DNA of 64,000 nucleotides from Isoetes taiwanensis (taxonomy: Eukaryota; Streptophyta; Lycopodiopsida; Isoetales; Isoetaceae), in contig JAJEKV010000005.1 in NCBI GenBank assembly GCA_021234155.1, forward strand, positions 17,592,089 to 17,656,088, in the 5' to 3' direction. The translations under genes and the position numbers were made by a program. The notes under the pieces were generated by a model that had not been told where the DNA came from, did no database searches, and saw nothing but the letters and a program-made list of their open reading frames with translations. This document shows, in pieces, positions 15,876 to 40,721 of the stretch. Position 1 is the stretch's first letter; each line of letters starts with the position of its first letter.

Positions 15876-16059
15876 CCCTTTTTTTTTTTTGAAAGATCAA
15901 ATTAATTAAGGGTAGTTGCACGAAAGGGTGTCTCATATTTCTTGTATAATGTAATAATAGGTTACACTAGGCTAGTGTAGTTAGGGGGAAAAATTTAGAT
16001 TTTACATGACATTTAATGCTAGCAACCAACGTGAAAGATTCCATATTTAATGCCATCGA

Positions 16060-16545
16060 TCCGGCCCTCGGATCGACATTCTAGAAGGAGCGAGCATGCA
16101 TGTCTTGCATGCATGCATGCCTTCTCTGGTTGATCGCTATATTAGGTGGGGTTCTTCATCGACGTCTCATCGGCCCTTCCTCTTCTCTCTCAGCAGTACC
16201 CTATTCTCTTTTCTTTGTAACCATGCAGGGGAGGGGCTTCTCCATGCTTGGATTGACCAGTTTGGCATTTCTTTCATGCTGTGGCATGTCCTTTCCCGGC
16301 CTTGCCTCTTCTTTAGCCATAATCTTTTGACCTTCGTCCTCGATCCCGTTTTGATATGGAAGTTCTCTTCTATTCGGGAGGTTTTTGTCAGTTTGGATCG
16401 ACATTCTAGAAGGAGCGAGCATGCATGTCTTGCATGCATGCATGCCTTCTCTGGTTGATCGCTATATTAGGCGGGGTTCTTCATCGACGTCTCATCGGCG
16501 CTTCCTCTTCTCAGTATCCTATCCTCTTTCCTTTGTAGAGGTTTT
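16060..16545. repeat. Two tandem ~325-bp modules (TTCTAGAA / GCATGC family)
   Basis: GATCGACATTCTAGAAGGAG at 16071 recurs at 16396, each followed by nested GCATGC palindromes and TTGATCGCTATATTAGG(T/C)GGGG. Spacing 325 bp. Reverse-complement relatives make up the 23.7-25.5 kb block, where the ends are a TCTAGA palindrome followed by an 8-bp-arm hairpin. The Met/His/Cys-rich frames here come from the GCATGCATGC palindromes and are not credible genes. This looks like a dispersed, locally tandem noncoding repeat family of unknown class. Confidence 0.8.
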
Positions 16546-16728
16546 TGTCGGTTTCATGCGAGCTCCTTCTAGAATTATGGTAACTAACAAAATTCGTGCA
16601 ATGAATTTGAAATTGGAATTGCCTTCGATTTCGGACTCCCTCGAATTCTCCTCCCAACCGATTCAATCTGTTCCCAAATCAATCGAACCTAAAAAATCAG
16701 AAAGCCCCATTTTGATCTTGTTTTTACA

Positions 16729-19547
16729 GTGGCTGAATTCATTGTTTTGGGTGAGAAAGCTATGGAAGAGGGTAGGTTGGAAACAAGAGCAAAAGACTCT
16801 ACTGATGAATCGGATCAGGCCAAGAACCCAACAGGTTCCCAAGGGAGGTCAAAACGAAAATCTTGTGACATTGGATATGTGACAAAACGTGTAAGAAGAA
16901 TGGTGAATGAAGCTGTTGATCTTATAGTGCATCAAATCTCTAATTTGGACCCAAAACACCAAATTACTTTTTCCAAAAGACTCTTGCAGGATAAAAGGTT
17001 ATGTTTTCTATTCGAACCCATCCTTGGGAAGCCTGAAGAGGCTATTGTGAAGGAAAAAATGGTAAAAAATCTCAGGGATGGCCTTCAAGAGGTCAAAACA
17101 GCAAATAGCAATGATAAACTTGCTGCTAAACACTCTATTCTTGCTATGGTAGTTGGAAAAGAGGGAGAATCGTTGAAGCGTACAAAGGCAGCCAAATTGT
17201 TGAAATTACATCCACGGAATATGAGCCTTGCAGCAAAAAGAAGGAAGGAAATGTCATTGGGTGGAGCAAATATGTGGGCATTAGCAGGTCGAAAATCCAG
17301 AACAAATGTTGTAGATCAAGCTATGAAGAATTTGATTGCCCAATTTTGGTTGGATAACACAAAAGTCTCGCCAAAAGTTAGATATGTCATGAAGAAAAGG
17401 ACACAGGCAATTCAATACAGTGATATTACACAGGCACAAATTATACATTGCCTTGATTTGATTATACAAATGTATGTACTTGGGTGTTATTATTTACATT
17501 GAAACAATATTCATAATTCTTTCTAATTTACCTTATGAGTGTAATAATAGGAAAATTTACTTTGCTTTATGGTTGTACAAACTGAAATTCTGTTTTACAT
17601 TTCTTCCCAATTGTTCAAATTCATTCTGGAGATGTATTACAGAGGTAGACTCTTGAAAGTAAGGATGTGAAAGATGTAGGATGTGTAATAGATGTGAAAG
17701 TTGTAATAAATGTAGGATGTGGACAAGATTGTAATCTGTATGTGAAGCTATAATAGATGTAATAGAAATCTTGAAAATGTATTGATGTAAACTCTGTTAC
17801 TATGCATTTTACAGGCTGAATTATTTCAGAACTTTGTGGATCAGCATCCCGATGTTGGAATTGGCATTAGACAGTTTATATACTTAAAACCAACATGCAT
17901 ACAAAGCTAAAAGAAAGAAACACTTGGTGTTGTGTCAAACACGAGCAAGCAGATTTATTTAGGAAGGCATTTTATATGATGAGGTCAAAAGTCCATGAGA
18001 ATTGCTCTTGCAATTGTAGAATTTGCAACTCAGAAGATAATGCTGGAATTTGTCAGGCAAAGAAAAGGACATTTGAGAATGTCAGCATGCTTTGGAGAGC
18101 CATGGTATGTGACAGAGCAGAAGATGAGGAGTGGCACTATCTAAAATGTATAAGTTCAGCTTGTGGAAATTGTGGAAAAAAGAAGATTGAATTATGTCCA
18201 AGGGAAGAGAGTGAAAGCATTGAAGAACCTGTTGCATGGCAAGCCTATAGCTATGTTAATGAACCTTCGAAGAAAGGAACTTCTCGAAGGCTGAAGCTGG
18301 TTGACAAGAACAGCAGTGCAAAATGCATGTTAGATAATATGTTTGATCATATGGCTAAATTTGTACATCATAACTTTGTGGCACATTGGCAAAGCAAGCA
18401 ATTCAAGGAATCCATTAGAACACTTTGGGATGATGCTGTACTATCGGTTGTTGATTTCTCAGAGAATTATACTTTGAAACCATTCAATGAGATCCAAGCA
18501 CAACATTGGTACAACGAGCAGATCAGCATTTTAGTTCATATCACAATGTTCAAGGTAAATGGAAAAATGAGGAAATGTGTGCACTTCTTCATTTCAGATG
18601 ATAGGACACATGATACTCACTTTGTACAGGATGCATTCAGGTTGCATCTTAAGTGGTTGCAAGAAAACGATGGCAGTCAGAAGAAGTTTCACTTAGTTTG
18701 GTATGACAGGTGTGCAGCTCAATTCAAATCGAGACGAGCATCTATCATGTAACCAGGTATCACCATGAACATAAAATAAGAATGCAATGGAATTTTTTTG
18801 GTTCAGGACATAGTAAAGACACCAGAAGAAGCTATTGCGAAGCTATAATTGAGGCAGAACAAAGAAAGAAGGAGGGCAAGGTGGTCATAAATGCTAAAAC
18901 TGCATGTGATGTTTTGAGAGAAAAAAAATTAGATGTGGAACGGGTTTTTTGGGAGGTTACTAACATTGACCGATCACAAAGACTTGATGTGTTGCCAGTC
19001 AAAGGTGTGCAGACAATTCATTGCGTGTCATCGATAGACCCTAGTGATCCAACAAAGCTACTATGCAGGTCTCTTTCATGTTTTTGCAAGGCATGCATAA
19101 GTTTTGATTGGTCTGCTTGCGACAATGTTGGCCATTGTGATAAGTGGGATTTAAGAAAACTAGAGCCTACAAATGGGCAAATGACATAGACAATGTGGAT
19201 GAGACAGTCCAAGTTGGAGATTACTTCGGATCATTCGCAGCTCCAGACAATTATGAAGGGGTGGCCTATTATATCATACAATGCACGGAAGTGAAACATG
19301 CTCTTGAAGTAGACGTCATGGATGACTATGGGAATCAATTTTACCGTGGTGATGAAGTTATATCAGGAAGTATAAATTACTTAAAGGAAAGAAGGTGCTT
19401 GTCCGTCCCGAGTCCGTGATAGGGGCGAGATTTCCATTGGAGCCAGTCCAGCATAAAATAAAAGGTGTTGCTTATGCATATGAATTATCCAATTACTGGC
19501 ACGAGATGCTTTTGGAAAATCTGCCCGAGATTGTAGACTGTATGTAA
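16729..19547 (+). pseudogene. DDE/RNase H-like transposase-type protein of an animal-like family, frameshifted
   Basis: Six coding blocks in changing frames make up one protein. Block 1 (16729 to ~17478) is Lys/Arg-rich with a K-R-V-R-R start. A probable intron ends with TTTTACAG at 17814. Block 2 (17815-17905) and block 3 (17895-18740) carry a Cys-rich region (W-C-C-V-K-H-E; C-N-C-R-I-C; C-G-N-C-G). They also hold three Asp motifs: V-V-D-F-S-E-N-Y (Asp 18453-18455), I-S-D-D-R-T-H-D (18597-18602) and W-Y-D-R-C-A-A-Q-F-K (18705-18707). Block 4 (to 19189) has W-N-F-F-G-S-G-H-S-K. Blocks 5-6 have V-G-D-Y-F and a conserved tail ending at TAA 19545-19547. I know this order of motifs from repetitive uncharacterised proteins in animals (D-F-A-E-N-Y, S-D-G, F-F-x-T-S-H-G-K). 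The transposase role is inferred from the triad and repetitiveness. Frameshifts near 17900, 18745, 19180 and 19400 inactivate it. Confidence 0.65.
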
Positions 19548-20187
19548 ACTGAAGACAGTTTTTTTATGCAGTCCCTAAGTCAGAAAATGACCATTACAGA
19601 AAATTGTTTACCATATTTACTGTATTCATCATTTTCATGCCAAATCAATTGTATTGTGTGGTCTACTATATGAGGAAGGTTGTGTAAAAAGTCTGGCCAG
19701 ATATCTCTAACTGATTGGGAGCAATTCAATACATTGACTAGGTCAAAACTAGGTCAATGGCCCAGACAGAATACAAAATACATCTGATTTACATTCAGTG
19801 GACATGAAATCAAACTTTTTTATACATGATCTGTGCCTTATCTTTGAACTAAAAATTGCAGATTACCATGCTACTATACAAGTCAAGAATATGGAAATAT
19901 TGTCATTTAAAAGTGGACAAAATTTTGTATTTAAAGATGAAGATCTGGTTACAATATGTTTCTGGTTACAATATGAAGATCTGGTTACAATATGTTTTTA
20001 CAAAATTTCACTTCATCTCATGTCATTATGTTACATGTCAACTCCTTCACATATCTTCATTTAGTTCCACATGTATGACTCCTGGAGCATCGATAAACAA
20101 CATGAGATGGTTAGTACACGTAACACATCAACTTAATCTTTAGAAGACTATTAATTAATTACCTCGTAAAGTATGCAAGGTAGGAGC
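19548..20187. other. Intergenic stretch with a small tandem repeat
   Basis: The convergent gap between the transposase-like relic and the Ulp1-like gene. AGATCTGGTTACAATATG occurs at about 19940 and 19977, with a shorter TCTGGTTACAATATG between, so three tandem copies of a ~18-bp word. No gene seen. Confidence 0.6.
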
Positions 20188-21893
20188 TCATGATGATCCG
20201 AGCGGGTCTAAATATGCTGCTATAGCAGCAGTCTCATCATCATGGGTGCCGTGATATGTTGGCATTCGAGAGCCCGTGCTTCTCGCTGAAGAACTTGTCT
20301 CCTCGTCATCGAGATCATCGACCATACATGTGTGAGTGCATGCAGCCCGCAACTGCATCCGGGAACTGCCATACTCATATGTGATCCGCTCCATAACCAA
20401 CTTGTCAAATGCATCAATTGGTGAATGGAACGGGTGATCCCTCACGTATGTTGAAATCTCATCCGCATTGCGAAGTCCTTCAATCTGGGGGTAGAGTGTT
20501 ATCGGCCTAGCATGCCGTGTTTTTGCAGCTGAGAACTCATCCTTGGATGTGAAACAACCCAATCCTCCGTCAATATCAAACACTAAGACCTTTCTTTTCC
20601 CTAAACCTGCCAACAATAAAACATGATGAAATTAAATAAGAGAAATGTTTAAATTGAATCAGTTTACATTCCATCTGCTCATGAGAATCAGTTTACATGC
20701 ACAATATACCAAATTTATTTAGACCAGAAAAAATATTATTTAAACATTCAGGACTGCAAGTTCAAGGACATGTTTGGAGACCAAAGTGGCATCCAAGGAA
20801 GATTTAACTACCAAATGACTCTTCAAGTGCATCTGCCCGTGCTTGTTCTATAGAAGCTATTGTTGAGCAGCCACCACCCTCACTAATGAGAGCGTCTATC
20901 AAGACCTGTCGTCGTGAAAGGGCATACTCATACGTAAACCAGTCTTGTGTAATCTACAACATATAATAATGTGCCAATGTTAGAATTGATCATGAAAAAG
21001 GGTCTTGAATAATGTGCCAATGTTAAAATTGATCATGAATAATGTACCTTTGAGTCTTTTCCAGAAATAAGCAGGTCAACAAACTTGTGCATAAATGACA
21101 TCACAAACAACCTGCAAGATGTCAAGTCAGGCTGTTGCCGTACTTCAAGGTAATTTATACCTTTTATGTTTTTTTTCCTCAAGTAATCCATTCCTTTGGA
21201 TGTCTGACTCATCAAGATCTGCGTGTGTAGTCTGCGCATATAAAATAGTCATGTAAGATTCAGCAAAACATTGAGATTAATTGAAATAAAAAACATATCA
21301 AAGGGATGTCATACCCTCTAATTGCCTTTTCATTTGTGGCAAAGCCATTTAAAGGGTTCAGGATATGTACAAATGATGCATCTAGAACTTTAGACTTGCT
21401 CTCAGCAAGAGCAAATATGGCCAGCACGAAGTGTTCTTTCTCAAGTACAGATACAAGGATGTATTGGCATTTAGCCATTACTAGCCCAGCAACGCCTTGC
21501 TTCACTGCGTTTACGGCAGACTTTGATGCATCATTTCTTTTCTTGTTGCTTGAAGCCTCCTTGAATAAAAAGTAATTGTAAGCAGAGAAGATACGGATTC
21601 TGCTTTTCCACTCCTGCGGCAGCTTATCATGCAAATATCTAATTGAGCACAAGGTCACAAATAAGAGCATATTCATAAAAAAGCTTTCCAAATCTTGATA
21701 AATGCTTCAAAACAGGGAAAGAATGGAAAATCACCTGCCATAGAGTTCCACAAGGCGGTTCGTCATCCTCGAGTTGGCTGTGCACAAAGCTTCAATGTCT
21801 AGATCAACCACTTTCATTGGAGGTTTAGGCTGGCTATTCTTGAATGGGAAAAGTGGAGTGCGAGCCTTCAACGTCTTCATGTTCTCCACCATT
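20188..21893 (-). CDS. Ulp1-like C48-family cysteine protease, five C-terminal exons
   Basis: Five minus-strand exons with GT-AG borders join without a stop: 21893-21735, 21638-21315, 21231-21048, 20953-20812 and 20606-20188 (TGA). Phases agree at every junction, giving about 408 residues from the ATG at 21892. The family cleaves SUMO or ubiquitin-like proteins in the nucleus. Evidence for the fold: His in E-H-F-V-L-A-I-F (codon 21431-21433), Asp in V-L-D-A-S-F (21380-21382), then Gln five residues before Cys in Q-P-D-L-T-S-C-R-L-F (Gln 21132-21134, Cys 21114-21116). The usual D-C-G around the Cys is S-C-R here, so activity or specificity may differ. The last exon is an acidic tail after a V-F-D-I-D-G-G segment. 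The first exon is preceded by a good acceptor (TTCTTTGTAG), so coding probably begins upstream. Plant transposons often capture such domains, so host or transposon origin is open. Confidence 0.7.
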
Positions 21894-21954
21894 CTACAAA
21901 GAAGAATAGAATGTTAACTTTAAACGACGACAATTGTTTTAACAAGGTGCTGCG

Positions 21955-21975
21955 CACGGAGGGTTGCCCTCCGTG
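21955..21975. repeat. Perfect 9-bp-arm hairpin
   Basis: CACGGAGGG and CCCTCCGTG flank TTG. It sits just upstream of the Ulp1 exon acceptor region. About 45 bases further on, part of the dispersed GGGTTGCCCC repeat family (about 22020-22075) can be read on the minus strand. Confidence 0.6.
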
Positions 21976-22154
21976 ACCCGAGAGTGAAATGGCTTAAATC
22001 ACACTTCAAAGTCATGTTTTCGAGCATATACTGACATATACTTGGAATATGCCACAAACCCACATGGATGAGGGTAAATATAATATAGCTGGCATAGGAT
22101 CTGTAAGACCACAAGGAAAGCTATACCTCAAAGCCAATCAACTCTCAGTCTCCA

Positions 22155-22213
22155 GGATGGATGGATGGATGGATGGATGGATGGATGGATGGATGGATGG
22201 ATGGATGGATGGA
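22155..22213. repeat. (ATGG)n microsatellite
   Basis: About 59 bases of uninterrupted GGAT/ATGG tetranucleotide repeats, roughly 14-15 units. Confidence 0.95.
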
Positions 22214-23689
22214 GCTAAAAAAAGGTAGCAGTTAAAAGAGCAGCCAAGCCAGTTGAAACTTTTGGCATAAGATGAAGTTTAAACTTTTTGTGGCATGCGA
22301 TGTAGTTCTTGTTTTCCTGGCAGTGGAAATGGCATTAACTATATCTAAAATTTGCCTTTGAAGTACTTGAAGCAATAATCAAATGCTTCAAGTATTTGGT
22401 AGTAGATTGTTCATCTGTGTCAATCATACTATTGTCCAGAAATATTTGGCATCCTAGGAATTGGTGCCCTAGTGGTGCATCGCTCATCTCTCAATAACCA
22501 AAATCTTTTCCTAGCTGTTGTCATCATTGTTGTTATGGATAAGGTATGTCTGGTTGCTTTTGTGTATCTATGGAAGCCCGTGGTACTCTCTGTGCTGGGT
22601 GTTGCTAATATTTCACAATTGCTAATTGAGCCCATGATATTGTAATAAGAATTATACTTATTTTTCTATGATGTCGAAATGTCACACAAATCCTCTATAC
22701 ATCATCACATGTACATATATGCTATCGCATCTACATAGATGCTATGTAGACAAAATGAATTAACCATCATTCAAAAGACTAAGGGATATTGCAATCACCA
22801 CAATGAGCAAGGACTTTGCGAATAAAACAATAAGTCTCAATTCAATATGAGCCAGATCTGATCAACCTGTTTTGCATTTTTACATATGTTCACTTTGGGC
22901 TTGTTAATGATGCATTATATTTATGGGCAATGTTGATGGCAAACGTCTAATTTATTGCAAACACTAGAAAAATAAGTGGTTTCTTAATTCATGATGTCTG
23001 TATTTTTGGCATTATTACACCTGTACTTTTTGGCATTGTTGTATCTGCAAATAATGTATCAAGAGACATAGCAAACATGTCGGTGTAATTAAGGAAGATG
23101 AATCAAGTGAATTTTGCTAAACAATCAAGTGAATTTTGTTGTCTAATTACTCCAATAATCTATTGCATCCATATACTCTATAGTTATGCGACCCTAACTT
23201 GTTCCTTCACCAAGGGAATAGCAAAATTAAAAAAAAGAGCATAGCTGAACCTTAAACAATTACAAAGAAGCCGGAAGGGCGTACAGCACCTTTCATTTGG
23301 AAAAGTGCCCACTCGCAACACAAAATCTACTGCTTCTCAACATTGTATATCACATTTAAACTATAAATACTCCAACATTAGGACAACCTTTACGACAAAA
23401 TTAGCTCTAGTTATTATGCAATTTGTCTTGCAACTCAAATTTTGACTTCTATTATAAGAGCCATAAAGATAAGTACAATACCTGTCTCCAAGTTTACAAA
23501 TGTTTCTTCTTCATTTATGAAGGGCGGTTTCATTTATGGCCCAAAAATGTTGATGTAAAGCATCTGAAATAAGATCCCTCCACAATATCTTGTCCAAAAG
23601 TTCCATAACCCTCCAGAATATTATGCATCTATTTGCCAAGAGGACTCGCATGAAACCAACAAATAGATAGGCTTCTCATTCATCTCAGC
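22214..23689. other. No gene seen
   Basis: AT-rich DNA with only short frames. If the 29-30 kb exons belong to the Ulp1-like gene, this is part of its large intron. Confidence 0.45.
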
Positions 23690-23823
23690 AGATTTTCTAC
23701 AATGGTGGACAGTGGGTAGCCGCACACATGCGGACTACCCACGAAAAATAAAGGGAAAATCCAATCATATCATTTGGACCCCAAAACAAATACAATGCTA
23801 ATAGATGAGTGGCTGATGTACCT

Positions 23824-23902
23824 GCCGAAAGTTTATCACCGGGATTAAAAAACCCCGCCCTTTCGGGTTTTCGAGGAAAAACCCTAGTGATAAGCCTTCG
23901 GC
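23824..23902. repeat. Conserved stem-loop, copy A
   Basis: Left arm GCCGAAAGTTTATCAC (23824-23839) pairs with GTGATAAGCCTTCGGC (23887-23902) with two mismatched positions. The 47-base loop contains a second hairpin, AAAACCC / GGGTTTT. The same structure recurs at 24701-24779. Confidence 0.7.
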
Positions 23903-24700
23903 AAGGGGCTTAGACAAACGTAAGGCATAGAATCGCTCCCAAAAACCCCCGCATGGAGAAGTCGAAACGGATGCAGCGCCAACCCGTACACTGCACATCA
24001 CCAACACAACAAACGAGAAACATACCAAAAGAATAGCATCACCCGGTGGTGGAAAAAAAAGCATCACCCAGGGGTGGAAAAACATGATAAAATGTAACTT
24101 GTACAAAATACAATAAACAAAGAAGGGGGAGGGTGGGTTCAAAGAGAATAAGGTGCTGGCGAGAGAAAGAGGAAGCCCGATGAGATGGATGCGTGGATCT
24201 GCCGCCACCAAATAGCGAACTCCCAACCCAAAACGGGCATGCGCCGCCGCATGCATGCATGACATGCATGCTCGTCCCCATTCTAGAATGGCGATCCGAT
24301 GTCTCGGATCGATCGCGATTCTAGAATGGGACTCGCAAAAAACCAACAAAAACCGCCCGACTACCGTAGAACTTCCTTACAAACTAGGATCAAGGGCGAG
24401 GTCATTGGGACGAGGCCAAAGGCCGTAAAGGATAGCAAGAAAGATACGCCAAAATTGGCTAAACCCAGGCAGAAGAAGCCCTCCCCACCTCGAAACAATT
24501 CAAAGAGAATAAAAGATGCTGGCGAGAGAAGAGGAAGACTTAGACTTGCTTCTCATTCATCTCGAAAAGATTTTCTAATAATGGTGGATAGTGGGTAGCC
24601 GCACACATGCGAACTACCCATAAAAATAAAGGGAAAATCCAATTATATCATTTGGACCCCAACAAAATACAATGCTAATAGAGACTGGGCTAGTGTACCT

Positions 24701-24779
24701 GCCGAAAGCTTATCACCGGGATTAAAAAACCCCGCCCTTTCGGGTTTTCGAGGAAAAACCCTAGTGATAAGCCTTCGGC
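24701..24779. repeat. Conserved stem-loop, copy B
   Basis: Left arm GCCGAAAGCTTATCAC (24701-24716) and right arm GTGATAAGCCTTCGGC (24764-24779) pair with a single mismatch. The loop again contains AAAACCC / GGGTTTT. It pairs better than copy A, which differs by one base in the left arm. Confidence 0.75.
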
Positions 24780-25813
24780 AAGGGGCTTGGACAAACGTAA
24801 GGCATAAAAATCGCTCCCAAAACCCACGAATGGAAAAGTCGAAACAGATGCCGCCGCTAACCATGTACACGCACATCACCAACAAAACAACAAGACAAAA
24901 CAAACCTCCCCCGAGTGGAGGGCTGATTCTGCCGTGCCCGCGATAAAAATACAATAACAAAGAAGGGGGGGAGGGTGGGTTCAAAGAGAATAAGGTACTG
25001 CTGAGAGAGAAGAGGAAGCGCCGATGAGAAGTCGAAGCAGAAACGCGCCTAAAATAGCGAACTCCCAACCAGAGCGGGCATGCGCCGCCCGCATGCATGC
25101 AAAACATGCATGCTCGTCCCATTCTAGAATGGCGATCCGATGTCTCGGATCGATGGGATTCTAGAATGGGACTCGCATGAAACCAACAAACCGCCCGAAT
25201 ACCAAAGGACTTCCTTAACAAACTAGGATCGAGGACGAAGGTCACAGGATGAAGGCTGAGAAAGGACAGCATGAAAGAAACGCCAAATTGGCCAAACCAG
25301 GCACCCCTGCCTGGAAACAATTCAAAGAGAATAAGGTACTGCTGAGAGAGAAGAGGAAGCACCGATGAGAAGTCGGCGTAAACGCCGCGCTAAAATAGCT
25401 TACTCCCAACCGAAGGCGGGCATGCGCCGCCCGCATGCATGCAAAACATGCATGCTCGTCCCATTCTAGAATGGCGATCCGATGTCTCGGATCGATGGGA
25501 TTTGCCAAGAGACTGTTCCTAAGAGAAAACATCATGAGTGTTGTGTCTTTCACAAAAGAGGCAACATGCAGAAGACAAAAACATCACGAGTGTTGTGTCG
25601 TGCCAATGAGCACCTAAATGAACGGTCTCAAAAAAGGAGGTTGTGTTGTAGGCGCCAGACTGACTGAACATTAAGGATGTCCAAGAGGGCCCAGTCTAAC
25701 ATTTGATCTAACCATATTGAAGAATAGTAAAAAGAAAGCGTTTTGCTCAGAAAGTCTAAGGCTGGAGGCGCTCAAATTAGCTATGGCCAGTAGATCAGGC
25801 ACTGCGCTTGATC

Positions 25814-26522
25814 CAGGGATAGGTTCAATACTGTATACGTTTTATACGCAATACGTATTTTTCGTTTGATACGGCACAAATTTGACGTTTAATACGTCAA
25901 AAATACGGCTAAAAAAAATTTCCGGCTGTCGAAAACTTTCGCGTAGTTTAAAACAACTGCTTTAAACTACGCTCCGGTTCGCCGCAAAATTTAAACAAAG
26001 CATTTTTCGCCACGCCGAACTCAAATAGTTTCGCGATAAGCGAATGAACTGCTTTCGCTTACGCCGAAAACATCTTCGCCAGTTTAAACAAATAACTTCG
26101 CTGCAGTTTAACGCCAAATAAATATATATAGAAAACTTCGTTTAAAACTTAAAACTGCCGCTTTTACGCCGAACCGCCTTTTGGCGTAGTTTAAACGCAA
26201 AAGAATGTTTATGCATCTAACAAAAGTTTCGCTGTAAACATTAACCTTTATACTTTCGCCGAAAAGAGTTTCGCTGCAAGTTTAACATTAAGGCTTTCGC
26301 TTTACGCCGGCGAGGGGATTCGCCAATAGTTTAAAAATTAGACTTCAAAAGCTACGCTGAAGAAAGTTCGCTGTGTAGCCGAAATTAAAGGTTTCGCTTT
26401 ACGCCGAACTTTTTTCCTACCGGCGAAAGATTAATACAAAAATACGCATTTTCCCAAAAATACGTATTTTTGCACTTTATACGTCTGAAAAAATAGTTTC
26501 ATACGTACAGAACCTATCCCTG
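25814..26522. mobile_element. 709-bp hAT-type MITE with GCTTGATC target duplication
   Basis: Perfect 8-bp direct repeats GCTTGATC lie at 25806-25813 and 26523-26530. The terminal inverted repeats are CAGGGATAGGTTC (25814-25826) and GAACCTATCCCTG (26510-26522), identical over 13 bp. CAGGG ends and 8-bp duplication are typical of hAT. Subterminal regions on both sides are full of ATACGTATTTTT, TATACG and related words. The centre is unusual: dense TTCGC, CGCCGAA and GTTTAAA words in both orientations. No coding capacity, so it depends on a transposase elsewhere. Confidence 0.92.
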
Positions 26523-26530
26523 GCTTGATC

Positions 26531-29019
26531 AAGCGATGCCATAGGCCACTTTGTAAATAGATTCGTAAACAGATTTGCTTATTCCACTTTGATGTGTTTG
26601 TGTAGATAGATAGTGAACATATATAGATAATGAAGAAAGATGCAGCAGAAACAAATCTGTGAGGGAAGGGGTACAGATTTTAGCATGTTTTTCTATGAGC
26701 TACTTACTGCCTAGTAATGCATACACCACATATATTTGAACTGCCCCCATGCATTTTATACGGATCTATGAGATTCGAACTGTAGCAAAGCTAGAGACAA
26801 CCCATATTACTACTGGATGATTCCATGGTGTAAGACATAATTTCAACAAGTCTAATTACTTCGCTGTAAGAGCATTTAAGAAGGCAAATAATTCTCTATA
26901 TTCTATTTGCTTAGACACCTACACAAAATTTTCACTCTGCAATTTCTAGACAGCTATCATAGGATCTCATTGATGTGCTAAAAATAGAGGCGTGAAAATG
27001 AGAAAGGAAATGTGCCTCCTCAGTCTATACCTAGCCAAAATTGATCTAATAAAATAGCAAATTCGTACAACTGGAGAAAAAACAGCACATTTGCAAGTTT
27101 GATTAAAATCAATACTCTGCATGTAAATAATCATATTCACTGTATATAGCTGTTATTCTAATAAATAGAATACAGAATCCCCCAAAAATCAACTCAGAAT
27201 AGAGTGCTTGTTGTGTTTACATTGCACAATCTTCTGCAGGGCGTGGAAGTGAACTAACTCCAACGTGTTGACAATTTACCCAACACTTTCAAGTAGACAG
27301 AAAAGCCTGGGCCATATATCATCCTGCAGATGCTCCCCAAAAAACAAAGAATTGCAAGTGAATGTAAATGACGAAAAAATGTGGCGTGTAATTGTCATCC
27401 AATGTAATTTATCCCATAAAGCAAATGGCAATGTAGCATGCCAAACTATCAACATTCGAGATGTAAAGCGGTATACTGCATGAGGTATTGGAGTTTTGAA
27501 TATGCGTTCACATGTAACCGGATGATCATAGAGCGTGTCGTTTCATGTCCCGAAAAATACTATCGAATTTGGAGACCCATCAAGTACGGGGAGAGATCGA
27601 AGTCGATTTGGAGACCCATGAAGAAACAGGATTCAAAGGTCAATTTTAAAAATACTTCTTGTGGGTTCACAACCGAGGATTTGCAGCAGTCAGAGGCATA
27701 GGCTCATGATTTTGACTCAGTAGATGGATAGAGACCCTTGAGAATACATAGATAATAGGTCAGTATTCACAGAGTCATAGGGTTTTTGCCTCGAGAAATG
27801 TTAAGTTTGAAGCGATTGCAATCGATATCAAAAACATAATAATATGCCATATCGAGCTAAGGAAAGAAATAAACCTCTATGCATAAGCCGGGCTCACTTT
27901 CGATCCTGCTAACCTCTGTGACAATAGAGAGACAAACCTATAAATATGCAGCTCATCCCGGGCATAATCAACTAACAGATTTCATGACATGAAAAATCTA
28001 ACTACCGCAAGAGTGTTTTCACAGATAGATAAATCTTCTACATTTTACTACGGGAACTATAGTCTAACCTCGATGTGGCATGTCTCTCAAGGCGGTCTTC
28101 AAGAATCAATGCGGTGCCTTGTGATTCTAGTCTAAATCCTGCAATAACAACTCCGGACCCGGCAAGTTGTGGGGACCACGCTGACCTCTTCATCTCCGAA
28201 ACGCAGCCAAGGCACGTAAAAAATATTAGGTCGCTTACCATAGTTTGCACCTAAAATAGAAGCACGACCCACATAGGCTTATGCTTACGAAATGGCATTT
28301 CATGAAAACCCCGACCCATTGCCTCAACGAAAATCCCTCAATCCATCAAAGACCGGAGGGTCGCAGGCATCTCAATCCGATGTGCTTGTTCAAACCGACA
28401 AAAAGAATGAGAGATAAACAATGGTCTAAGCCTTTGCATACCGCTGCGTTAAGTTGCTTTAGCCCTTCCCGAGAGATAGGGGTTTCAAAAATCGCCTACG
28501 TAATGGACATTTAATTGCTTCCCTCGTCATAAATCTATTGTTACATACACATTTCCGGCATTGAGAGTTACTCCGGCACACCAATCTCCTCCTAAGAATC
28601 TGCGTTTAGAGCTCGCTATTCGTGCTTTGCTGCTGCCCCTCTGAAACCACAAGACCCACGCTTTTGAGGTCTGCGGCCCCACGGCTCTGCTATGGCAATC
28701 AAATTGGGGCCTTCGAATCAGGCCCATGGGCCTTATAAATCATAGCGCATGCACAAAAAGCAATGCTAGAGCAGATGTGAAGGCTACGAGGTCGCCCTTG
28801 AACCTTTGGAGTACAATCTCGGATATCAAAGCAGATGTCACCACTAAAGAGGCTGCTTCAAGAATGCACGCAGTAAAAAATAAACTTAGAAATAGCTACG
28901 AACCTAAATCTAAATCTTCAAGTTCCGAACCTGCAGAATCAACCTCTGAAGCAACACGACCAGAGCCATAGCCAAGTCCGAGGTGCAGAAGCCATAGCCA
29001 AGTCCGGCTGGATGACCGA
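26531..29019. other. No gene supported
   Basis: Several frames of 60-90 codons on both strands, none with a recognisable motif. The stretch around 28030-28970 has higher GC and overlapping frames on both strands (for example an 81-codon plus frame at 28726-28971, Lys/Ser-rich). It could hold exons, but I cannot choose a strand. Between the Ulp1 exons and the 29.3 kb exons this may be intron. Confidence 0.35.
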
Positions 29020-29155
29020 GCATTTACAGGCAGCAGCCAGTTTTTAGCAGTCATCAGCATATGCTAGGTATATGCCAGCATATACTTGAATATGCCCACA
29101 TACCCACATAAACGAGGGTTTGCCCCCCTAGGGGCAACCCAAAAAACATACACAA
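29020..29155 (-). repeat. Dispersed repeat containing GGGTTGCCCC, copy 1
   Basis: On the minus strand TTTTTTGGGTTGCCCCTAGG leads into GCAAACCCTCGTTT, a TATATGCTGG word and TGATGACTGCTAAAAAC. The same order is found on the plus strand at about 53401-53540. A shorter, more diverged piece lies at about 22020-22075 (minus). No terminal repeats or duplications identified. Confidence 0.7.
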
Positions 29156-29333
29156 ATACCTTGATTCTAATTGAGCATTTTTATGCCTACAAACATAAGT
29201 GTATGTAGTCAGAGATGTATTCATATGCTTAATATTTGAATTAGACATTAGCATACAAGAGTTAATGATGCCTATAATTACAATTCCAAGTAATTAAACC
29301 CTAAACTAAACACCCAAAACAGGCAAGTCTCAC

Positions 29334-30090
29334 CTTTTTACATTTGTTGCTTCCTTTCTTGAATCTACCTTTCTTTTTAACTTTGCTGCCTCGTCCTCCT
29401 TTTTCACGAACACCTGTACAGCCTTTGTTGCAACTTTGCATGCCCTTTCAAGATCTACGCTCTCCAATTCAGCTACCCCTTTCACATGTAGGCTCTCCTC
29501 TCTTGTGTCATCTACTACCAACAAATTAAAACCCCAATGCAAATTTGGTATAGATATGGAAAACATTAAAAATATGCACCTGACATTGAATTCTTGCATC
29601 ATGGCAGCTTGATGTCATCAGATTGCTCACCATTTAAATCAGCCCGTTCACCTGGAAAATGGCAAGTTCAGGCTTTTGAGTTCAGCACTAAATTAAAACA
29701 GTAAGAATGTAGTTAGAGACACTTACTATTGAATGGCTCGTGTTGCTGCTGCAACAAAGCCAACTCTGTTTCCACATTTGGGATCTCACCTACAAGAATA
29801 AACCCTAAAATCAATTCATTAACAAATTGGGCTAAAAACACTTCTACTAGACCGGGTACCTTGCACATCTTCTATCAACACCTCATGAGGTTTCTGCCCC
29901 TCTAGTGCAGCCAACTTCTGCTCTAAATGTGCTTTGTCCTCCACATTGTCAAAGATTTGTTCTTTCACAGGCGACCTAGATGTGGATGGAGTTTCACTAC
30001 TAAGGACATCATCCTTTGCTGATGTTTCAGCTCCAGAGGACTCCTCATATGTCAATTTCAACCCTTTTCCATGAAATTTCTTCGTGCAAC
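29334..30090 (-). CDS. Four phase-consistent exons, charged coiled-coil-like; probable upstream part of the Ulp1-like gene
   Basis: Minus-strand exons 30090-29860, 29789-29727, 29651-29631 (a 21-base micro-exon) and 29511-29334 have canonical GT-AG borders, and their phases fit at all three junctions with no stop. This gives about 164 residues. The product is rich in Glu, Lys, Ser and Ala: a Ser/Thr-rich acidic part, a Leu-rich heptad-like stretch (L-A-A-L-E-G; E-L-A-L-L-Q-Q-Q) and a Lys/Glu helix at the end. I recognise no domain. The last exon ends in phase 2, which is what the first Ulp1-like exon at 21893 needs (AG plus A gives Arg). One gene of at least nine exons, with a ~7.4-kb intron carrying the repeat block and hAT MITE, is therefore plausible but not proven. 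Further exons upstream of 30090 are expected. Confidence 0.55.
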
Positions 30091-30499
30091 CTAAACCAAG
30101 TAACAATGAAGTCACAAACATGCTTAGCAAATATACATGGCTGCTGGTTTCTTGATGCTATCCATATCTACATTGAAGAAATTTGTGAGTAAATTAATTT
30201 TATTATCTTGTTAACATGTACATCCCAACATGTCAAAAGGTAAATGTAAAGGAAAAATTCATGTCAATGAAAAAAAGCTAAAAAAATTGCAAACTAGATG
30301 TAAATCAGAAGTGGTAAAACAGATGTACAATTATAGTATAATAATATCTACCAACATGACTGCTATAAATGTAATAGAAAACTTGAAAGATAGATGTAAT
30401 CATAATCTCATTTGCATTCTAGCATGTTATATGTACATATAAAGAGAAAATACACAGATGTGAAAAAGAACTGCTCAAAACAAAGATCCAATTGCAATT

Positions 30500-30796
30500 A
30501 AAATACATTCAAGTGCATTTGGTGATTTTCAAAGGAATCCGGAAGGGAACTGCCGGAATGCATCAGCTCCGGCTCTGAATCTAAATCCAACAACTCTGAT
30601 AGGAGAGATTTCAATGGGGAGAATGGCATGGACAATTTCAGCAATGATATTCGGTTGGTCCAGCAAGCATCTAGGTCTGTAGGGGGTGCCACGCAGCCGG
30701 CATTCTATTTTGCAGGGAATATCGCACAACAAGCATCTGTGGTTTATGCTTTCGAGAATACCTCTGCACCCAGCAGATCAAATGAGTGGATTTGAC
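30500..30796. other. Ambiguous coding-like segment, open on both strands
   Basis: On the plus strand a frame stays open for ~95 codons up to TGA near 30795, with Ser/Asn/Asp-rich text and no ATG. On the minus strand a 64-codon frame (30692-30498) reads as an acidic Leu/Ser-rich peptide. If the minus reading is right it could be a further exon of the gene at 29.3-30.1 kb. I cannot decide. Confidence 0.25.
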
Positions 30797-31585
30797 CCTG
30801 CGTCTCTGGCTGCATATCAAGGGGTGTTTATGGGTAGTTTGAAACATGAGCTCTTGGATGATAAAGCATTTGGGTTAGATTTTAATCGGTTTTGCTTTGA
30901 GAAAAGGTCAAGTTACAGTTGATCTGCTACATTTAGGTTAGGCTTGCCTAAATTATGCAGGACCTGTGGTGATTTTGCCTTGTGCAGACATTTATGCTGG
31001 ATCTCTATTTTTGGCAATATTACCAAATTGGATATCTGCAGCGACAGCATTTGGGTTTGGTTGGTCCTGTTTGGACGATGGATCAGTGGAGCTGTTTTTG
31101 ACCTGCTTTATTTACTAAAGCCAGTTTACATGTACTCTGTCAATCAATCAGAAGATTCTTGCAGTTTTTGAGGTGTTTTGCAAATCTGGGAGATTACAAC
31201 GAGAGATGATTCGAGGCAGAAAAGGAGCAATGTTATGCATAGGCTGTGAGTCTTGTTTGAGAGCATTCTTTTAGGTTGGATTTCTAGTCCCTTGTACAAG
31301 ATTGATAATTGAACATTACGCATTTGGTTTTAGTGAGGGAATACGTACAGCAGAATTTATGAAGCTCTGTCTACAAACCATAGTTCGATCTCATGAAGAG
31401 ATTGGCCTGAATCTCCGATTTATGGTCTGCTCCTTTAGGATGTAGCTGAGATGGATCCGTAGACATAGCAAGGGGCAGATATTCAAGAGGGAAATGTATT
31501 GGCTGTAAGCATTGGTCTAAATTGGGTGAAAAGTGAACGGCATTGTGACTGCAAGTTCAAAACAGTTTCTGGTAATCGGAATTTA
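30797..31585. other. No gene seen; left flank of the LTR element
   Basis: Short frames only. The TGAAT at 31586-31590 is the target duplication of the adjacent retrotransposon. Confidence 0.5.
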
Positions 31586-31590
31586 TGAAT

Positions 31591-33038
31591 TGTGACGTCC
31601 CCTACTCGTATACGATGCCAGCACCGTATACCAACAGGAGTTCATCCCCCGCACCAGCTCCACACTGATACAGGGCCCTCCACATATCACTGTGACCGGC
31701 TAGAGTTCACAGTGGGAAGAGTGAAGGGGTCATTTTACCCCGTCTTCCTCAGGGCCTACCTAGCTGCGGAGGCATAAACATACATGTCAGTAGTACATAC
31801 ATCAACATCATATGACCATCACGAAGGATGGTTCTCCACATATCTGCATAGACAAAGATCAGCACATCACATAGGGAATCCTACCCAAGGCTCGCATTAC
31901 GAGGGGATGGGTGACAAGCTCGGGTCTCCGAGAGGTCATTGCGCATGCGAATTCATGGCAATGGATTTGGCTGGCATAAGAACATGGCTTAGGGTTGTCC
32001 ACTCCATCCACCCCTCCTGTGCACACTTTGCAGAGTAGGTTGAAAAGTGTTGGGACCTGACTATAGCCCGCCGGGTGCATAGCCAAAGGGGCTACGTCTA
32101 CTGGGTTACATCTCCCCCACCCAGATGGGGCGGTAGGGATCACTCCCTCCGAGATCTACATCTTGACTCAAGGTGACTAGAGGGCCACTTGCCCTTATTC
32201 GACTTGAACTCACTTTGGAAGGTCATATCCACCACCCCACGAGTGTGAGCCCATGCCTTGCCCACACGCCAGTGGCAAGCCATTAGACCTAGTCACAATG
32301 ATCCCCGGTAGGCCTTACACACCAGAGGGATCGTTCAAGAGTCAGAACACGAACCTCATTCTAAGCCAGTGGACCAGCTAGGAGCATCATCTACTAAGCT
32401 TTAAGTCTCTACCCCCCTTCCCAATACAATGAGTCCACAGAATACATCCGTCCATCATATCAACATAAGTAAATAAGAACTAATCTAATTCATAGAGTTA
32501 GGTTCTTTAGTTAGAGTCAATCTCAGGATCTGCTTGGCTACTAAGGGTGATTTAATAGGCTAAACCTACTGGTTCGAAGGCTGGAACAAGGTTTAGGCTA
32601 TTCAATCGACAAATACCTGATCCTGGTTCACTCCTCTCGATCCGGCGTCCATGTCTCGCTCGCCCGGGATGCGGTCGGAAGGATGATCTGACAAGCTGGG
32701 GCGCACTGGCAGATCGTGGGAGTTGGAATTGACTCCTCGGTAGCCTGAATCCCAGCTCCGGAAGGTCCGTAGGCGAAAAAGGGAAAGTTAGGGTTTGGTG
32801 CCTTATGTAGGCTATCGTTAGGTTTAGGGTTTCCATGACCCTTGGTCTACCTTTAATGGGTTAAAGGTCTAAAAGTCGCCTTGCTAAGTGTGCGCACCAT
32901 TGCAAGTTGCCCCCTAGGGCACCCTTGCTTGGGTACACGTCGGCGAGACCGCGTCGATTGGGGCCGGCGTAATGGCGTGGCGGTGCTGATCAAGATATAG
33001 ATCACCCCCGACCGTGATATCAGGCTTGGAACGTCACA
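31591..33038 (-). repeat. Left LTR of the LARD (3' LTR of the element)
   Basis: 1448 bp, beginning TGTGACGTCCCC and ending GGAACGTCACA on the plus strand, so the ends are an 8-bp inverted repeat TGTGACGT/ACGTCACA. It differs from the right LTR by substitutions and several indels. For example, it lacks a ~65-base segment present at about 41505-41570. Confidence 0.92.
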
Positions 33039-33119
33039 TTCTCCCCACCTTGAAATGATGCTGTCCGCAGCATCGTGGGTCTCCCCACCTTGGAGTCTTC
33101 CTAACCTGCAATCAACTTG

Positions 33120-33665
33120 ATGCATACAATATTTTTCTATTATACTTACACAATTATTAGGATTACCTTAAAGTACTATTAAAACATTATTACGTCATTA
33201 CATTATCAAGTAACTTATCAATTCGTAACTTCTATTAAAACAAGGTACTTATTAGTTTCCGTTATCACAACATTTAGTTTATCACAATTTAACACTTTCA
33301 TATACAATTATTATTTAAGGTACTCTTCATCCCTTGCAACACATTCCAATAAAATTTGTGTTGCAAGTCTTCGCACCTTAAAATCCTGCATTAATTCTAC
33401 AATATCTATAATTACATACTTACTATCTTAATTATTAGAATTACTCTAAGGTAATGTTTAAGACATTACTGTACTATTTCATTATCCAATTAACTTATCA
33501 CTTCATAACTTAATTCACGCAAGGTAATTATTAACCTTACTTAATACAACATTTAAGTTTATCAAAGTTTATCAATTTCATACCAAATTTACACTTCTAA
33601 GGTACTCTTCATCCCTTGCAACACATTATAACAAAATTTGTGTTGCAAGTCTTCGTAGCTCGACC
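33120..33665. repeat. ~280-bp imperfect tandem duplication inside the LARD
   Basis: AAGGTACTCTTCATCCCTTG followed by CAACACATT and AAAATTTGTGTTGCAAGTCTTCG occurs at about 33318 and again at about 33600. The AT-rich sequence before each (ATTATTAGGATTAC / ATTATTAGAATTAC and on) also matches. Confidence 0.75.
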
Positions 33666-36348
33666 TCCTTGCCCTCCGGAGCGCTATAATGGCCTGCAGG
33701 TCGACACTACGTTATTACCATTTTAATAAAATTTTGGTTATATGGTGACCACCCCACCTATCTACATGAATGCATGGCTAATCTCCCGGCATAGGAAGAG
33801 GATGCTCCTTCCATCGTGGCCGTGGAGACAGCGCCCTATAATGCCTATATGCCGCTCATGCCTACACCTTTAGTTGCCCAACGTGGAGGATAGGTCCTTC
33901 CCGTATATGGGTCGTGAAGGCCAGATTCCTCCTATCAAAGCATATATGGGGCTAGAGGTGCTTTTTCTATCAATGCATTCCTCAATGACCTCCTTTCTCT
34001 CAAGGTCGTCTACTTCCGTGGGACAGAAGTAGACTTTGCAAGCGGCACCGCGGTCATGCCTACATTGACATTACACCACGTCCTAGAGATCACCGCAATG
34101 ATCTCATCATCGGTAAATACGCATGCAACCCATACCTGGCATAGGTTGCATGTGTAGATTAATCTTAACTACACATGAAACTAATCTAAACACAAATCGA
34201 CATGCCTGAGCCGATTTTTGCTGGCTCCTTTAATGCATGTGATTAACATAATTACCCTAAGGTAATATTTATGAATTACTTCCGATAGTACAATTATATT
34301 TACTCTAATCTTTACAATATTTAACGACTTTAGATCGCGATTATTTAAACAATAACCCTGATTTAGACCTATTGTTACATAGACAAGGTTTTAATTATCA
34401 TACACAAGAATTATATGTGCTTCTTATTCTCTTCCTTGGGTCCTGCGTTACCCTTGGAAGTATATCCCTAAGATGCACTTAAGTATATCTGAATTCTATT
34501 TTCTATTTATATTTAAAAGGACCCGAGGTCATGTAGCTATCCTTGGAGGAATTGCATCCTTGCGAAGGATTAATTAACATGCTACCTCGCATTACCATTG
34601 TTATTTAACTTATTTCCCTATGATACATATACGTACAACAATTTCTATGCAGTTATTGGGATCTATATTTAACTTATCAATAAGACACATTTAAAGCTTA
34701 TAATACATGCGCACACCTTACCTAAGGCTAGCGCATCCACCCATTGAGCCGGCGTCGAGTAATTTGGAGATGACTTGGTCGTTGCATTGCTCCCATAGTT
34801 TTGCTCCACTTCATTGGTGTAGATAGCTACTATGCCAACCTCGCACGTTGAAGGCCACCTGAGCACTAAGGTATCTATCTAGCTTACGCTCTATTCTCTT
34901 CGGCCATTGCCGGAGTGAACTCTATTCTACAGGTCGGTCAATTTGATGCAAGTACGTTCAATCATAAGATTGAGCCCTCCCACTTTCTTCGAAAAGAAAA
35001 TGGTCCTGCACTCCTTTAATGACGTTGTACACAACGTCATATCTATTCTCTCCCCTTAAGAGGTTATACGCTTCTTACTTAGCGCATTAATTTACTAGCC
35101 TTAGCTGACATATATAATCATCTAAGATGGATGCACATATTATGTTATCATTTATTTCAATATAGTTATGGCACCTACTTAGCTAGAACGATTCTAAACC
35201 ACAAGGTTTTGTCATCATGACAATTCCTTTTGTCTCAAAAGACTATTTGATTACTATAATTGTTATTTTAGATGTATCTTACATGTACTATTCTTTTATA
35301 TTCTAGAGATTCCCCCTTTCTTAGTTATTTAGCTCTTGGAATATTCCTACCAATCGAATTGATGTCATCGTAACAAGTTGGCCGGACTTGCTAGATTACT
35401 TCTTTTCTTTCGGTTGGATTATTCTTTTGGAGGTACTAGATTTATACATGGTCAACAATTATCCTAGTAATGATTCCTTCTTAGCGAGGAGATCAATCTC
35501 ACCAAGTGGTTTCAATACGTTGGATGTCTGTTAACAATCGTGTATAATTTTAGTTACTCCTATGCGTTTCCTTCCCAATACTTGACGCTTAGCTCAATAT
35601 TGGGGCAATCCTTTCGGCGAGAATGTCTAACAATGCCTTCTAATCCCAATATGGATGTTACCGTCCATACATTTAACCTACTAGGCCGCATGGCCTTAGA
35701 TCCTTGAGCTTGCTAGAAGCTCATCCACTCGTTGCCTGCTTGAAGTAGCAAGGTAACGTTCTTCCGAGTCGCTCGATGCTTCAGTCTCCTTGACGGTGGC
35801 TCCTCTTTGATGTAGAGGTTGACTTTATTCGTTAGAAACCTCTCATCGCTGGCTTTGATGGCGTAGTTGGTCACTTGAAATCTTCCATGCCGCTTTTCAA
35901 AAGATCTTTCATCATGAACTCTTTGTCTTGGCAGCTGAAGGACGACTCTGTATCCGATACGACTCCATTGACGTCTCATACATCGAGTCCTCTTGTTGCC
36001 CGAAGAGTGTTGAGGATGTTGATTGCTTCACCCCTGCAAATTGCCTGACATCTCTTCCTTTGATCTGTTACGCTATGGGGGGGGAATAACAAGGGAACTA
36101 TATATGCAAAGCATATAACTTACATAATTACAATTACTACTAGAGCTATTAGGTCCCCCTTGTGCCTCCCTCCGAGTTGCACACCTACTCCTTGGCAATG
36201 TCATCGGTGTTCCTCCCGGTGCAATGGTGTTGACGATCCATATCCTCCTATTTGTGCGTCATTTCATTACTCCGGGTAACTTGTTGATGTACTTGGGCCC
36301 TCCGATGTTTGTCGCCTATGGCACAACACGCTTTGCATCACATTCTAA

Positions 36349-38813
36349 CTAAAGGTGTGCTGGTCGTTGATGCTTCGACATTTGATTACCTTCTTCCCCG
36401 ATCCTGTTCTCGGCGGTAATTGTTCCCCCCCTCATGATACTTGAAGCTATTTGAAGGCGTCTCTTGAGGTCATGTCTGCGATTCCTTTGGCTATACTCCT
36501 GCGGTTGTTCTCTTCTGCCGGTTGTTCTATGAATGGGTCCATCCTTGGGTTCACCAAGTTGCGTGTAAGTCAGCGTGCAAGTCATCGGCTCGCCTCGCCT
36601 GGTTGCTTCTCCATCGAGCTTCCAAACCTCCTTGTTTGATCCCCTCGATCACATGGCTTGGGCGTTGTCACGTTCCACGATGCTATATCGTCTTCTTGTC
36701 TTGAGGTACCTTCCGTGGCTTTGATTGTGCTCGTCAATTTTGATCCTTACATTTGCCTCTAGGGAGCTGCGTGGAAGAAGTCGGTTGCTAGCACTTCTCC
36801 AGACTTTCGGTTCCTGGCCTTTGTCCCTCTATGCATGTCGGTCTCTCGGCAAGTAAGGCATCATGGCTCTCCTCCCCGATGGCTCGGTTGTGGGATGATG
36901 GATCCTTATATGTGTGCGCCTTTACCCTTGAGTTGAAGAAGTACCGCCTTAGATATACTTTCTTGTCGTTGGATAGCCCGGCTGTTCTTGAACTCTCTTT
37001 TTGCTTTGAAGGTGCTTCGGTTGCTATCCTTGTCGTTAAGGTGCGAATGCTTCTACCTTGGGCATTTGATGTGCCCATGTCGGGAGATGTGATTGGCTTC
37101 TTCTCTACTAATTCTTGGTAGGAGTACCGACGTGAAGCCATCACCTAGTTGTTGAAGGCATATTTCCTCGTCGCGATGCCTTTTCGTAAGTGCATCTCCA
37201 TCTAATACCCGTGTCATAGGGCATCACCCTATATTACCACAAGGTGGAGCTATGGTCGTCGAGATGTTGCCTTCTTAGTTGGCTCGTTGATGTCGGGTCG
37301 TTCCTTCTTCTATTGTTGAGGCCACTAGTGTCATAAGTTCGTCAAGTGTTGCCGATGTGCGGTGCCGTTGATCACTTGAGTAGGATCACCTGGCTGTTGC
37401 AGTCAACCATTCTTGAATATCTTCGAAGCTCTGAGATCGTGGTCGGTAGGCAGGCATTGTCATTCCTTCGGTTGAATTTACGAGTGCAACTCCCCGTTGC
37501 TTGGGCTTTGCTCCATTCCAAGGTGCCTCTCTTGTGCCTGGAAGTGTGATCATCTTCATTGCACCTATCATAGCTCCTTTTGGTCGCCTTTGCGTGATTT
37601 GTACCTGCTGGCTAGGTCGTCTCCTCCGTCCTTTGGGTCCTATCCATTCGAGTCTCGTGCTCACAGGCTGGCGTAGTAAGGTCGTCCTTCCTTTGGTTTC
37701 TAGGTGTTTTACGGGTCCGGAATTCTTGTTCGAAAGCAGAATATGCTCCCTCCTTGATCTTGCCCCTAATGCTGATATAGGCCTTCAAGTCGGAGATGTT
37801 CCTTCCACGATATCGTCTCCTCCCCTCATGGTCTCCTACTTTTTGGAACCGATGAAAGTTCTCCTGCTTGGTGCAAGGGAGCTGGAAGCTTGTCTGGGTC
37901 AGCTTTAGGTGCTTTGTGGTTGCGTAGCTTGGTTGCTCCTTTTGTTGACATTGCATGACATTCGCTTGAGCTACTGGGCTGCAAGGTCGTGGTGGTCTTC
38001 CCTCCGGTTTCTATACGCTCCTGTGTCGCCATGACTTCTCTCCTCGACAGAAGATTATGCCTTCTGGCCCTAGCTCGTGATGCTAATGCGGTATCGATTC
38101 TAACGTCTTCCTGCACCTGTATTTTGCTGCCTTGCGTTCTTCCATTTGAAACTCATGTGCGTCGAGTTGGTGAAGGCATCGAGATCCTCTTTCTGATGTG
38201 AGCTCATGGACGTGGTAGCCGAGAGGTTGACATCTAGAAATTTCTTGATGCCGCTAGTTACCAAATATCCTTCCCATTTGATGAAGATTGATGCTAGGCC
38301 GATGGTGTCCTGTTCTACTCGTTTGTCAGTTGAGGTATTTGTCGTTGTGCTTCCCTCTCTTGGGTCTGTCTTTTCAGTCTCCTCTCCTTATCTGTTTGTA
38401 GATCGGCTAGGTCCTCGATGTCTTCCAGAAGTTGCGCCTCTAGCTCTTCTGTGGCTTTGGCCCTGTACTTCGAAAGCAACGCTCGTATATTCTAGAGTCT
38501 AAGGGTCTACTTGAAGGGCTCTCCTACAAGATTTTGGGCTCTATAAGCAAGCAAGGTGGCTCGAGCAGCATTACTGGAGCCATATCTATAATCTACAAGT
38601 CTATGGATATTAGGACGTGTGGTATGGCATGAAATGAAGGTTGTTTTGCAAGACCTCCATGATGTTTGAGGCATACTCTAAGGTCCTAGCAAAGTTGGTT
38701 TGAGGGAGGGGTCCAATCTCTACACATGGAGCGGCTTGGGCAGCTCTAGACTCTAGCTCCTTTCTAGGTACCCTGGCAATAGGGAGTGTTAATGTGGCGG
38801 CTATATAAGTCAA
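36349..38813 (-). pseudogene. Degenerate LARD-internal coding remnants, function unknown
   Basis: Overlapping minus-strand frames of 67-118 codons (38813-38610, 38116-37826, 37956-37612, 37664-37386, 37144-36788, 36585-36349) read as Arg/Lys/Gln/Glu-rich protein. A coiled-coil-like stretch lies near 38460-38300 (L-E-A-Q-L-L-E-D-I-E-D-L), in the frame that continues into 38116-37826 after stops. A gag-like origin would fit position and charge, but there is no CCHC knuckle and no recognisable gag domain. The plus-strand frames in the same place look like shadows. Confidence 0.3.
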
Positions 38814-40575: not shown

Positions 40576-40709
40576 CTTAACTGTTACTAGCTTAGCACAA
40601 ACTACAAAAGTGAGAAAAAAATTTCCCACTTTCCGAGGTTTGAGGGTCCTATCAAGTTAGTACTACTGGGAGCATGGCCAGTGCTTTGCTCTTGGTCTCC
40701 AAGAACATT

Positions 40710-40721
40710 GCTCTGATACCA
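40710..40721 (-). promoter_or_regulatory. Primer binding site for initiator Met tRNA
   Basis: TGGTATCAGAGC on the minus strand, one base inside the LTR that ends at 40723. This 12-mer is the standard plant retrotransposon site for minus-strand priming and fixes the element's orientation. Confidence 0.9.

Follow-up and report, generated by a model that had tools for sequence, protein, structure and literature searches.

The Sola superfamily of DNA transposons reportedly goes back to a founding description by Bao et al. in 2009. In the review passages cited here, Sola elements are described as encoding a DDD transposase, generating 4-bp target site duplications (TSDs), being mostly 2-9 kb in length and carrying terminal inverted repeats (TIRs) of 11-1124 bp (PMC10741241). 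They are recorded from bacteria (PMC10741241) and from metazoans and the moss Physcomitrella, and are seemingly uncommon in flowering plants (PMC10741241, PMC9033089). For MULEs, the same source gives TSDs of 7-12 bp (PMC10741241). Capture of ULP sequences by plant transposons is on record for MULE and CACTA elements, and the KI-MULEs (Kaonashi), described there as non-TIR MULEs of flowering plants, carry a ULP domain that is oriented opposite to their transposase gene (PMC2528002). KolobokP elements are described as pairing a DDD/E transposase with an accessory gene that is read from the complementary strand, and piggyBac insertion as TTAA-specific (PMC9587614).

The window analyzed here (the whole 64,000-nucleotide stretch from the lycophyte Isoetes taiwanensis) contains a transposase gene in decay, part of a large, multicopy DNA transposon that would move by a cut-and-paste route. 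We consider it very likely that this is a fossil copy of a two-gene family of elements of about 9 kb, probably of the Sola superfamily, with a D-84-D-41-D transposase and an antisense SUMO protease (Table 1). The antisense SUMO protease is the most unusual feature of the transposon.

Table 1. Features of the transposon copy and of the sequences inserted into it, in window positions
Feature	Position	Strand	Basis or remark
Target site duplication, left copy TTAA	15906..15909		Exact 4-bp match with 48693-48696
Left terminal inverted repeat GGGTAGTTGCACGAAAGGGTG	15910..15930	+	20/21 bases match the right end
Element segment 1, left end, 5' non-coding	15910..16051	+	Aligned to C908, C919 and C1069
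Nested insertion 1, other repeat family, AAT on both sides	16052..16572		Missing in C908
Element segment 2, transposase and Ulp1 genes	16573..21945	+	Colinear with C908 and C919
Transposase N-terminal coding exon, 249 codons	16729..17475	+	Acceptor TTTTTACAG; in-phase donor GT at 17476; translation
Transposase catalytic and C-terminal coding region	17815..19547	+	At least four frame changes; open-frame homologues L018, L019, L021, L023
Cys-rich stretches, probably zinc-binding	18003..18197 (starts 18003, 18147)	+	CSCNCRICNSEDNAGIC and CISSACGNCGKKKIELC; several Cys invariant in alignment A1
DFSENY	18453..18470	+	Putative first catalytic Asp; Asp invariant in 18/18 A1 rows
ISDDRTHD	18591..18614	+	Conserved block, probably not catalytic; both SDD Asp invariant in 18/18 A1 rows
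YDRCAAQFK (other copies SDGCAAQFK)	18702..18728	+	Putative second catalytic Asp; Asp invariant in 18/18 A1 rows
QWNFFGSGHSK	18785..18817	+	Other copies run on into HGKGxHDGE with putative third Asp
VGDY-based C-terminal domain (VQVGDY at 19207)	19207..19547	+	Frames; matches C-termini of L018, L019, L023
Ulp1/SENP-like C48 cysteine protease gene, several exons	20188..21905	-	Tail to tail with transposase
Nested insertion 2, ~7.2 kb, inner insertion 23643-25499	21946..29141		C908 uninterrupted; borders within a few bases
Element segment 3	29142..30520	+	Homology stops at 30454 versus C908, 30520 versus C919
Nested insertion 3, direct-repeat pair 31591-32974 / 40723-42152	30521..44054		Alignment to copies
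Element segment 4	44055..44610	+	Aligned to C908 and C919
Nested insertion 4, ~4 kb	44611..48597		C908 uninterrupted
Element segment 5 with right TIR	48598..48692	+	94-95% identical to right ends of C908 and C919
Target site duplication, right copy TTAA	48693..48696		Pairs with 15906..15909

The element, of about 9 kb, lies in the window in five segments separated by four nested insertions, and spans 15910..48692 with 21-bp TIRs. Homology among independent copies starts at window base 15910 (15909 in one copy), and the flanks outside this point are unrelated. The right end was placed by alignment to two complete copies, C908 and C919, which measure 8988 and 9011 bp; a third copy followed rightward, C1069, diverged before its right end was reached. 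About 1 kb of the element has been lost beside nested insertion 3. A blind TIR/TSD search close to the gene found no ends, because the nested insertions move the right end to 48692. The region 16729-19547, to which the earlier note refers, is one gene of a far larger element, and the second gene had been overlooked.

Several repeats were observed within and beyond the nested insertions. The sequences at 23643-25499 and 16052-16572 belong to one repeat family composed of tandem hairpin-rich units (CGATCCG..CGGATCG, CATTCTAGAATG and GCATGC..GCATGC). We considered the inverted repeats at 16049-16570 and 23643-25499 as possible long TIRs and rejected them, since a separate 12-bp TSD (at 23631 and 25500) flanks the right one and C908 lacks the left one. 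The repeats at 31591-32974 and 40723-42152 are direct, in the same orientation and 89-94% identical, and probably represent the two LTRs of a retrotransposon nested here. An imperfect palindrome of roughly 410 bases with 76% self-complementarity occupies 43157-43565. Overlapping direct repeats with 93-99% identity (46464-47293 and 46740-48099) lie within nested insertion 4. Farther right, a retrotransposon gag protein is encoded at 56948-57583 (Pfam PF03732, E=1.3e-6).

Genome-wide, the end pattern GGGTAGNNGCAYGAAAGGGTG was detected 315 times in forward and 316 times in reverse orientation, and its reversed control 0 times. Facing neighbors less than 35 kb apart formed 24 pairs (all such pairs among the end matches listed of the 631), which together with the window element, C908 and C919 gave a sample of 27 elements. 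Exact 4-bp TSDs flank 22 of these, as against one of 702 mismatched control pairs. Selection of the 24 pairs by their ends largely accounts for the identity of their TIRs, while the TSDs are independent of it. Five of the 27 elements have no TSD, the complete C919 copy among them, and we count this against our explanation. No match longer than 4 bp was found at the flanks of any of the 27 elements; a MULE of the KI-MULE type was rejected on this ground, and the Pfam matches include no Mutator domain. The 22 duplications show no strict sequence, with TTAA in the window copy alone, so the TTAA-specific Kolobok and piggyBac were also rejected, as was Tc1/mariner with its 2-bp TA duplication, given varied 4-bp TSDs in 22 of 27 elements. 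Alignment of genomic copies, which the earlier note had proposed as a check, thus recovered both terminal repeats and target duplications, and its guess that the protein is a transposase gains from the finding that the gene belongs to a multicopy element with such ends.

The genome (1,658,258,908 bases in 1110 contigs) was searched with the 285-residue transposase core as query. We detected at least 137 matches at no fewer than 136 places, the window's own match counted; this is a lower bound, as 136 of 9575 candidates were scored. Among the matches listed, copies outside the window are 54-96% identical to the window core. The similar copies at 135 further places rule out a chance origin of the motifs. 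Moreover, shuffling the sequence 100 times never produced the motif pattern DFxENY-11-HWxxxQ, of which the window has one instance, and the two longest open stretches at the gene, measured from one stop to the next, have 269 and 293 codons, compared with 236 codons for the longest in 40 Markov sequences of 64 kb and like composition. We took 20 stretches of 10 kb around genomic copies for comparison. The best-related copies compared are 97% identical, which counts against our explanation as regards current activity. A diverged subfamily, L018 and L019, begins with GGGGTAAAAGCATGCTAGGGTG (at 2771 and 2466, respectively, in gene-orientation coordinates), an end that is related but different; these two copies are 97% identical over 4.1 kb.

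The blocks of the window transposase are spread over three reading frames, and with at least four frame changes and a probable intron at 17476-17814 this copy must be regarded as broken and dead. The motifs and the Cys-rich region named in the earlier note are present, and with positions recomputed, the Asp of DFSENY, ISD and YD are indeed separated by 48 and then 36 codons. In other copies open frames reach 629 codons. These open-frame copies carry DF[SA]ENY, SDGCAAQ and HGKGxHDGE, with WSDGCAAQFK where the window has WYDRCAAQFK and with HGKGxHDGE following WNFFGSG. In an alignment of 18 transposase rows, the window included (A1), every row keeps the Asp of DF[SA]ENY, ISDD and SDG. Eleven of the 18 also show HDG; a deletion removed it from L024, and the remaining six, which include the window, either are shifted or stop short of this motif.

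Averaged Chou-Fasman values, a crude estimate, suggest in order a strand (VVDF), a second strand, a third that ends in ISDD, a helix, a strand ending in SDG, a short helix that passes into a strand, the WNFF strand and lastly a helix that begins with HDG. This order largely fits that of the strands in an RNase H core. If it is such a core, the catalytic residues would lie at DF[SA]ENY, SDG and HDG, and ISDD would be structural. We infer that the catalytic triad is probably D-84-D-41-D, formed by the Asp of these three motifs. The earlier note had taken the three Asp blocks visible in the window as the triad; its middle Asp, in ISDD, is probably not catalytic, and the triad probably comprises DFSENY, its third block and the later HDG that the window copy has lost.

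Values of dN/dS were obtained from 10 of 28 ORF pairs, the other 18 being saturated. They range from 0.09 to 0.17 in eight between-family pairs (one with a dS of 2.77, near saturation) and are 0.29 and 0.45 in two very close pairs. Protein-level selection acts on the transposase between families. Purifying selection of this kind, together with a spliced gene, might be expected of a domesticated or single-copy host gene, the outcome that the earlier note had named as speaking against a transposon. Since a single genome holds the gene at 136 places, and inverted ends and target duplications go with it, that reading has a negligible probability.

By its sequence, the second gene is an Ulp1/SENP-type C48 SUMO protease. 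When its window exons were joined at plausible splice sites, the product matched PF02902 at E=4.5e-4 (20.5 bits, just under the cut-off of 20.7). The corresponding genes of two other copies matched at E=1.1e-11 and 1.6e-10 (45.4 and 41.7 bits against the cut-off of 20.7), and one of them finds SENP7 in PDB (E=0.0026). We detected the catalytic part in nine of the 20 fetched copies, two of which are the query sources; the nine include L031, the most diverged, with a core 56% identical to the window (members L031 and L032 range from 56 to 62%). The C-terminal part also matches in L019, L021 and L025. In the remaining 11 of the 20 fetched 10-kb stretches the catalytic part was not found, which we count against our explanation, and in eight stretches neither part was found; there the gene may be absent, diverged, interrupted or outside the stretch. 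Within the Ulp1 region, approximately 380-390 bases that are present in L013, L014, L016 and L030 are missing from the window at 20499/20500.

The 11 copies in which the catalytic part was not found could suggest that Ulp1 is an unrelated host gene that came to lie beside the transposase by accident, and plant transposons are known to capture ULP sequences (PMC2528002). We judge this very improbable, as C908 and C919, two independent insertions, both have Ulp1 between their mapped ends and in colinear arrangement, and the gene recurs in L031 and L032. An Ulp1 gene that belongs to the element has a precedent in other transposon families, namely the ULP domains of KI-MULEs and CACTA elements.

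Searches with the transposase returned matches below the cut-off only in Pfam (best E 0.0038) and likewise in NCBIfam, and no convincing match in PDB (lowest E 0.31). With E values of up to 1 admitted, the 18 members matched eight Pfam families, among them no integrase, Mutator or other transposase model. Viral, prokaryote, phage and plasmid collections yielded no relative: pattern matches there comprised one hit and three hits attributable to chance and 32 others, none of which was confirmed. In prokaryote genomes one hit of the strict motif pattern was obtained and is attributable to chance; divergent relatives could be missed by this search. None of eight motif strings was found in print in the literature searched.

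The Academ and Ginger superfamilies and the Chapaev branch of CACTA-like elements make 3-4-bp TSDs, and Academ combines a Cys-rich region with an XPG nuclease. These TSDs, and for Academ the Cys-rich region, would accommodate the element in one of these other named superfamilies with 4-bp duplications. We consider such an assignment improbable, given that none of the 18 members has an integrase or other transposase model among its Pfam matches and that the matches of the two genes contain no XPG domain. Ginger in particular, with its Gypsy-like integrase core, was rejected since no integrase model is among the eight families.

A group of uncharacterised animal proteins bears a DFAENY / SDGxASQxK / HGKG signature. 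A 395-residue composite of this group, put together before other copies were seen, serves as a lead and not as a database test. It aligned to the read-through of the window with 25% identity (E=1e-20); with L018 the identity was 26% across 425 columns (E=2e-31), with the motifs in the same order. Its SDG and HGKG-DG blocks were later seen in other genomic copies: the animal signature given in the earlier note thus has a near form in open-frame copies, whereas the window copy, being decayed, lacks it. The composite also had no Pfam model above the cut-off. A protein group described as "uncharacterised" is now tied to a mapped element with exact ends, and the transposase guess becomes testable.

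It is possible, if rather unlikely, that these elements form a new DNA transposon superfamily apart from Sola, common to animals and seed-free plants and paired with a SUMO protease in plants. Neither the transposase nor the animal composite has a Pfam model above the cut-off, the eight motif strings were not found in the literature searched, and the Ulp1 pairing is present in diverged members. The 4-bp TSD, the three-D motif and the occurrence in seed-free plants are nevertheless traits given for Sola in the passages cited. We hold with similar reserve the fuller version of this idea, an unnamed DDD superfamily in which the plant-side SUMO protease would evade or exploit SUMO silencing.

Returning to the two-gene transposon, probably a Sola, we propose the following mechanism. 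The transposase, with its putative zinc-binding Cys-rich stretches and D-84-D-41-D core, would bind the 21-bp inverted ends (GGGTAG...), excise the element and join it to staggered cuts in the target. Such cuts would yield 4-bp duplications without a strict target sequence. The Ulp1/SENP protease would probably aid the element against SUMO-dependent control by the host or act on the transposase. Such elements are abundant in this lycophyte genome, with hundreds of ends. If a further kind of plant transposon besides MULE and CACTA carries Ulp1, this would suggest that transposons have captured SUMO proteases repeatedly and under selection.

Membership in Sola seems likely to us because the TSD, the three-D motif, the size and the occurrence in a seed-free plant fit the description of that superfamily, the assignment being made from described traits. 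The earlier note had located the gene and recognized its nature, and needs correction in its coordinates, its triad and its view that the group is unknown in plants. The last is probably wrong, as the 4-bp TSD and three-D motif fit Sola, which is reported from Physcomitrella.

In combination, the comparison with Sola covers the 4-bp TSD (22 of 27 elements), the TIR and size ranges (a 21-bp TIR, and 8988 and 9011 bp in two copies) and the DDD signature, for which three D motifs are conserved in 18, 18 and 11 of 18 rows with a putative catalytic role. Sola is known from bacteria, whereas the strict pattern for this family gave the single chance hit in prokaryotes, and an Ulp1 companion goes unmentioned in the passages of the Sola reviews cited here. 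The animal DFAENY group, as represented by the composite, has like motifs in the same order. KI-MULEs share a ULP domain in reverse orientation to the transposase but are non-TIR elements, unlike the family described here with its 21-bp TIRs. KolobokP is likewise a two-gene element with genes on opposite strands; the accessory gene here is a C48 protease.
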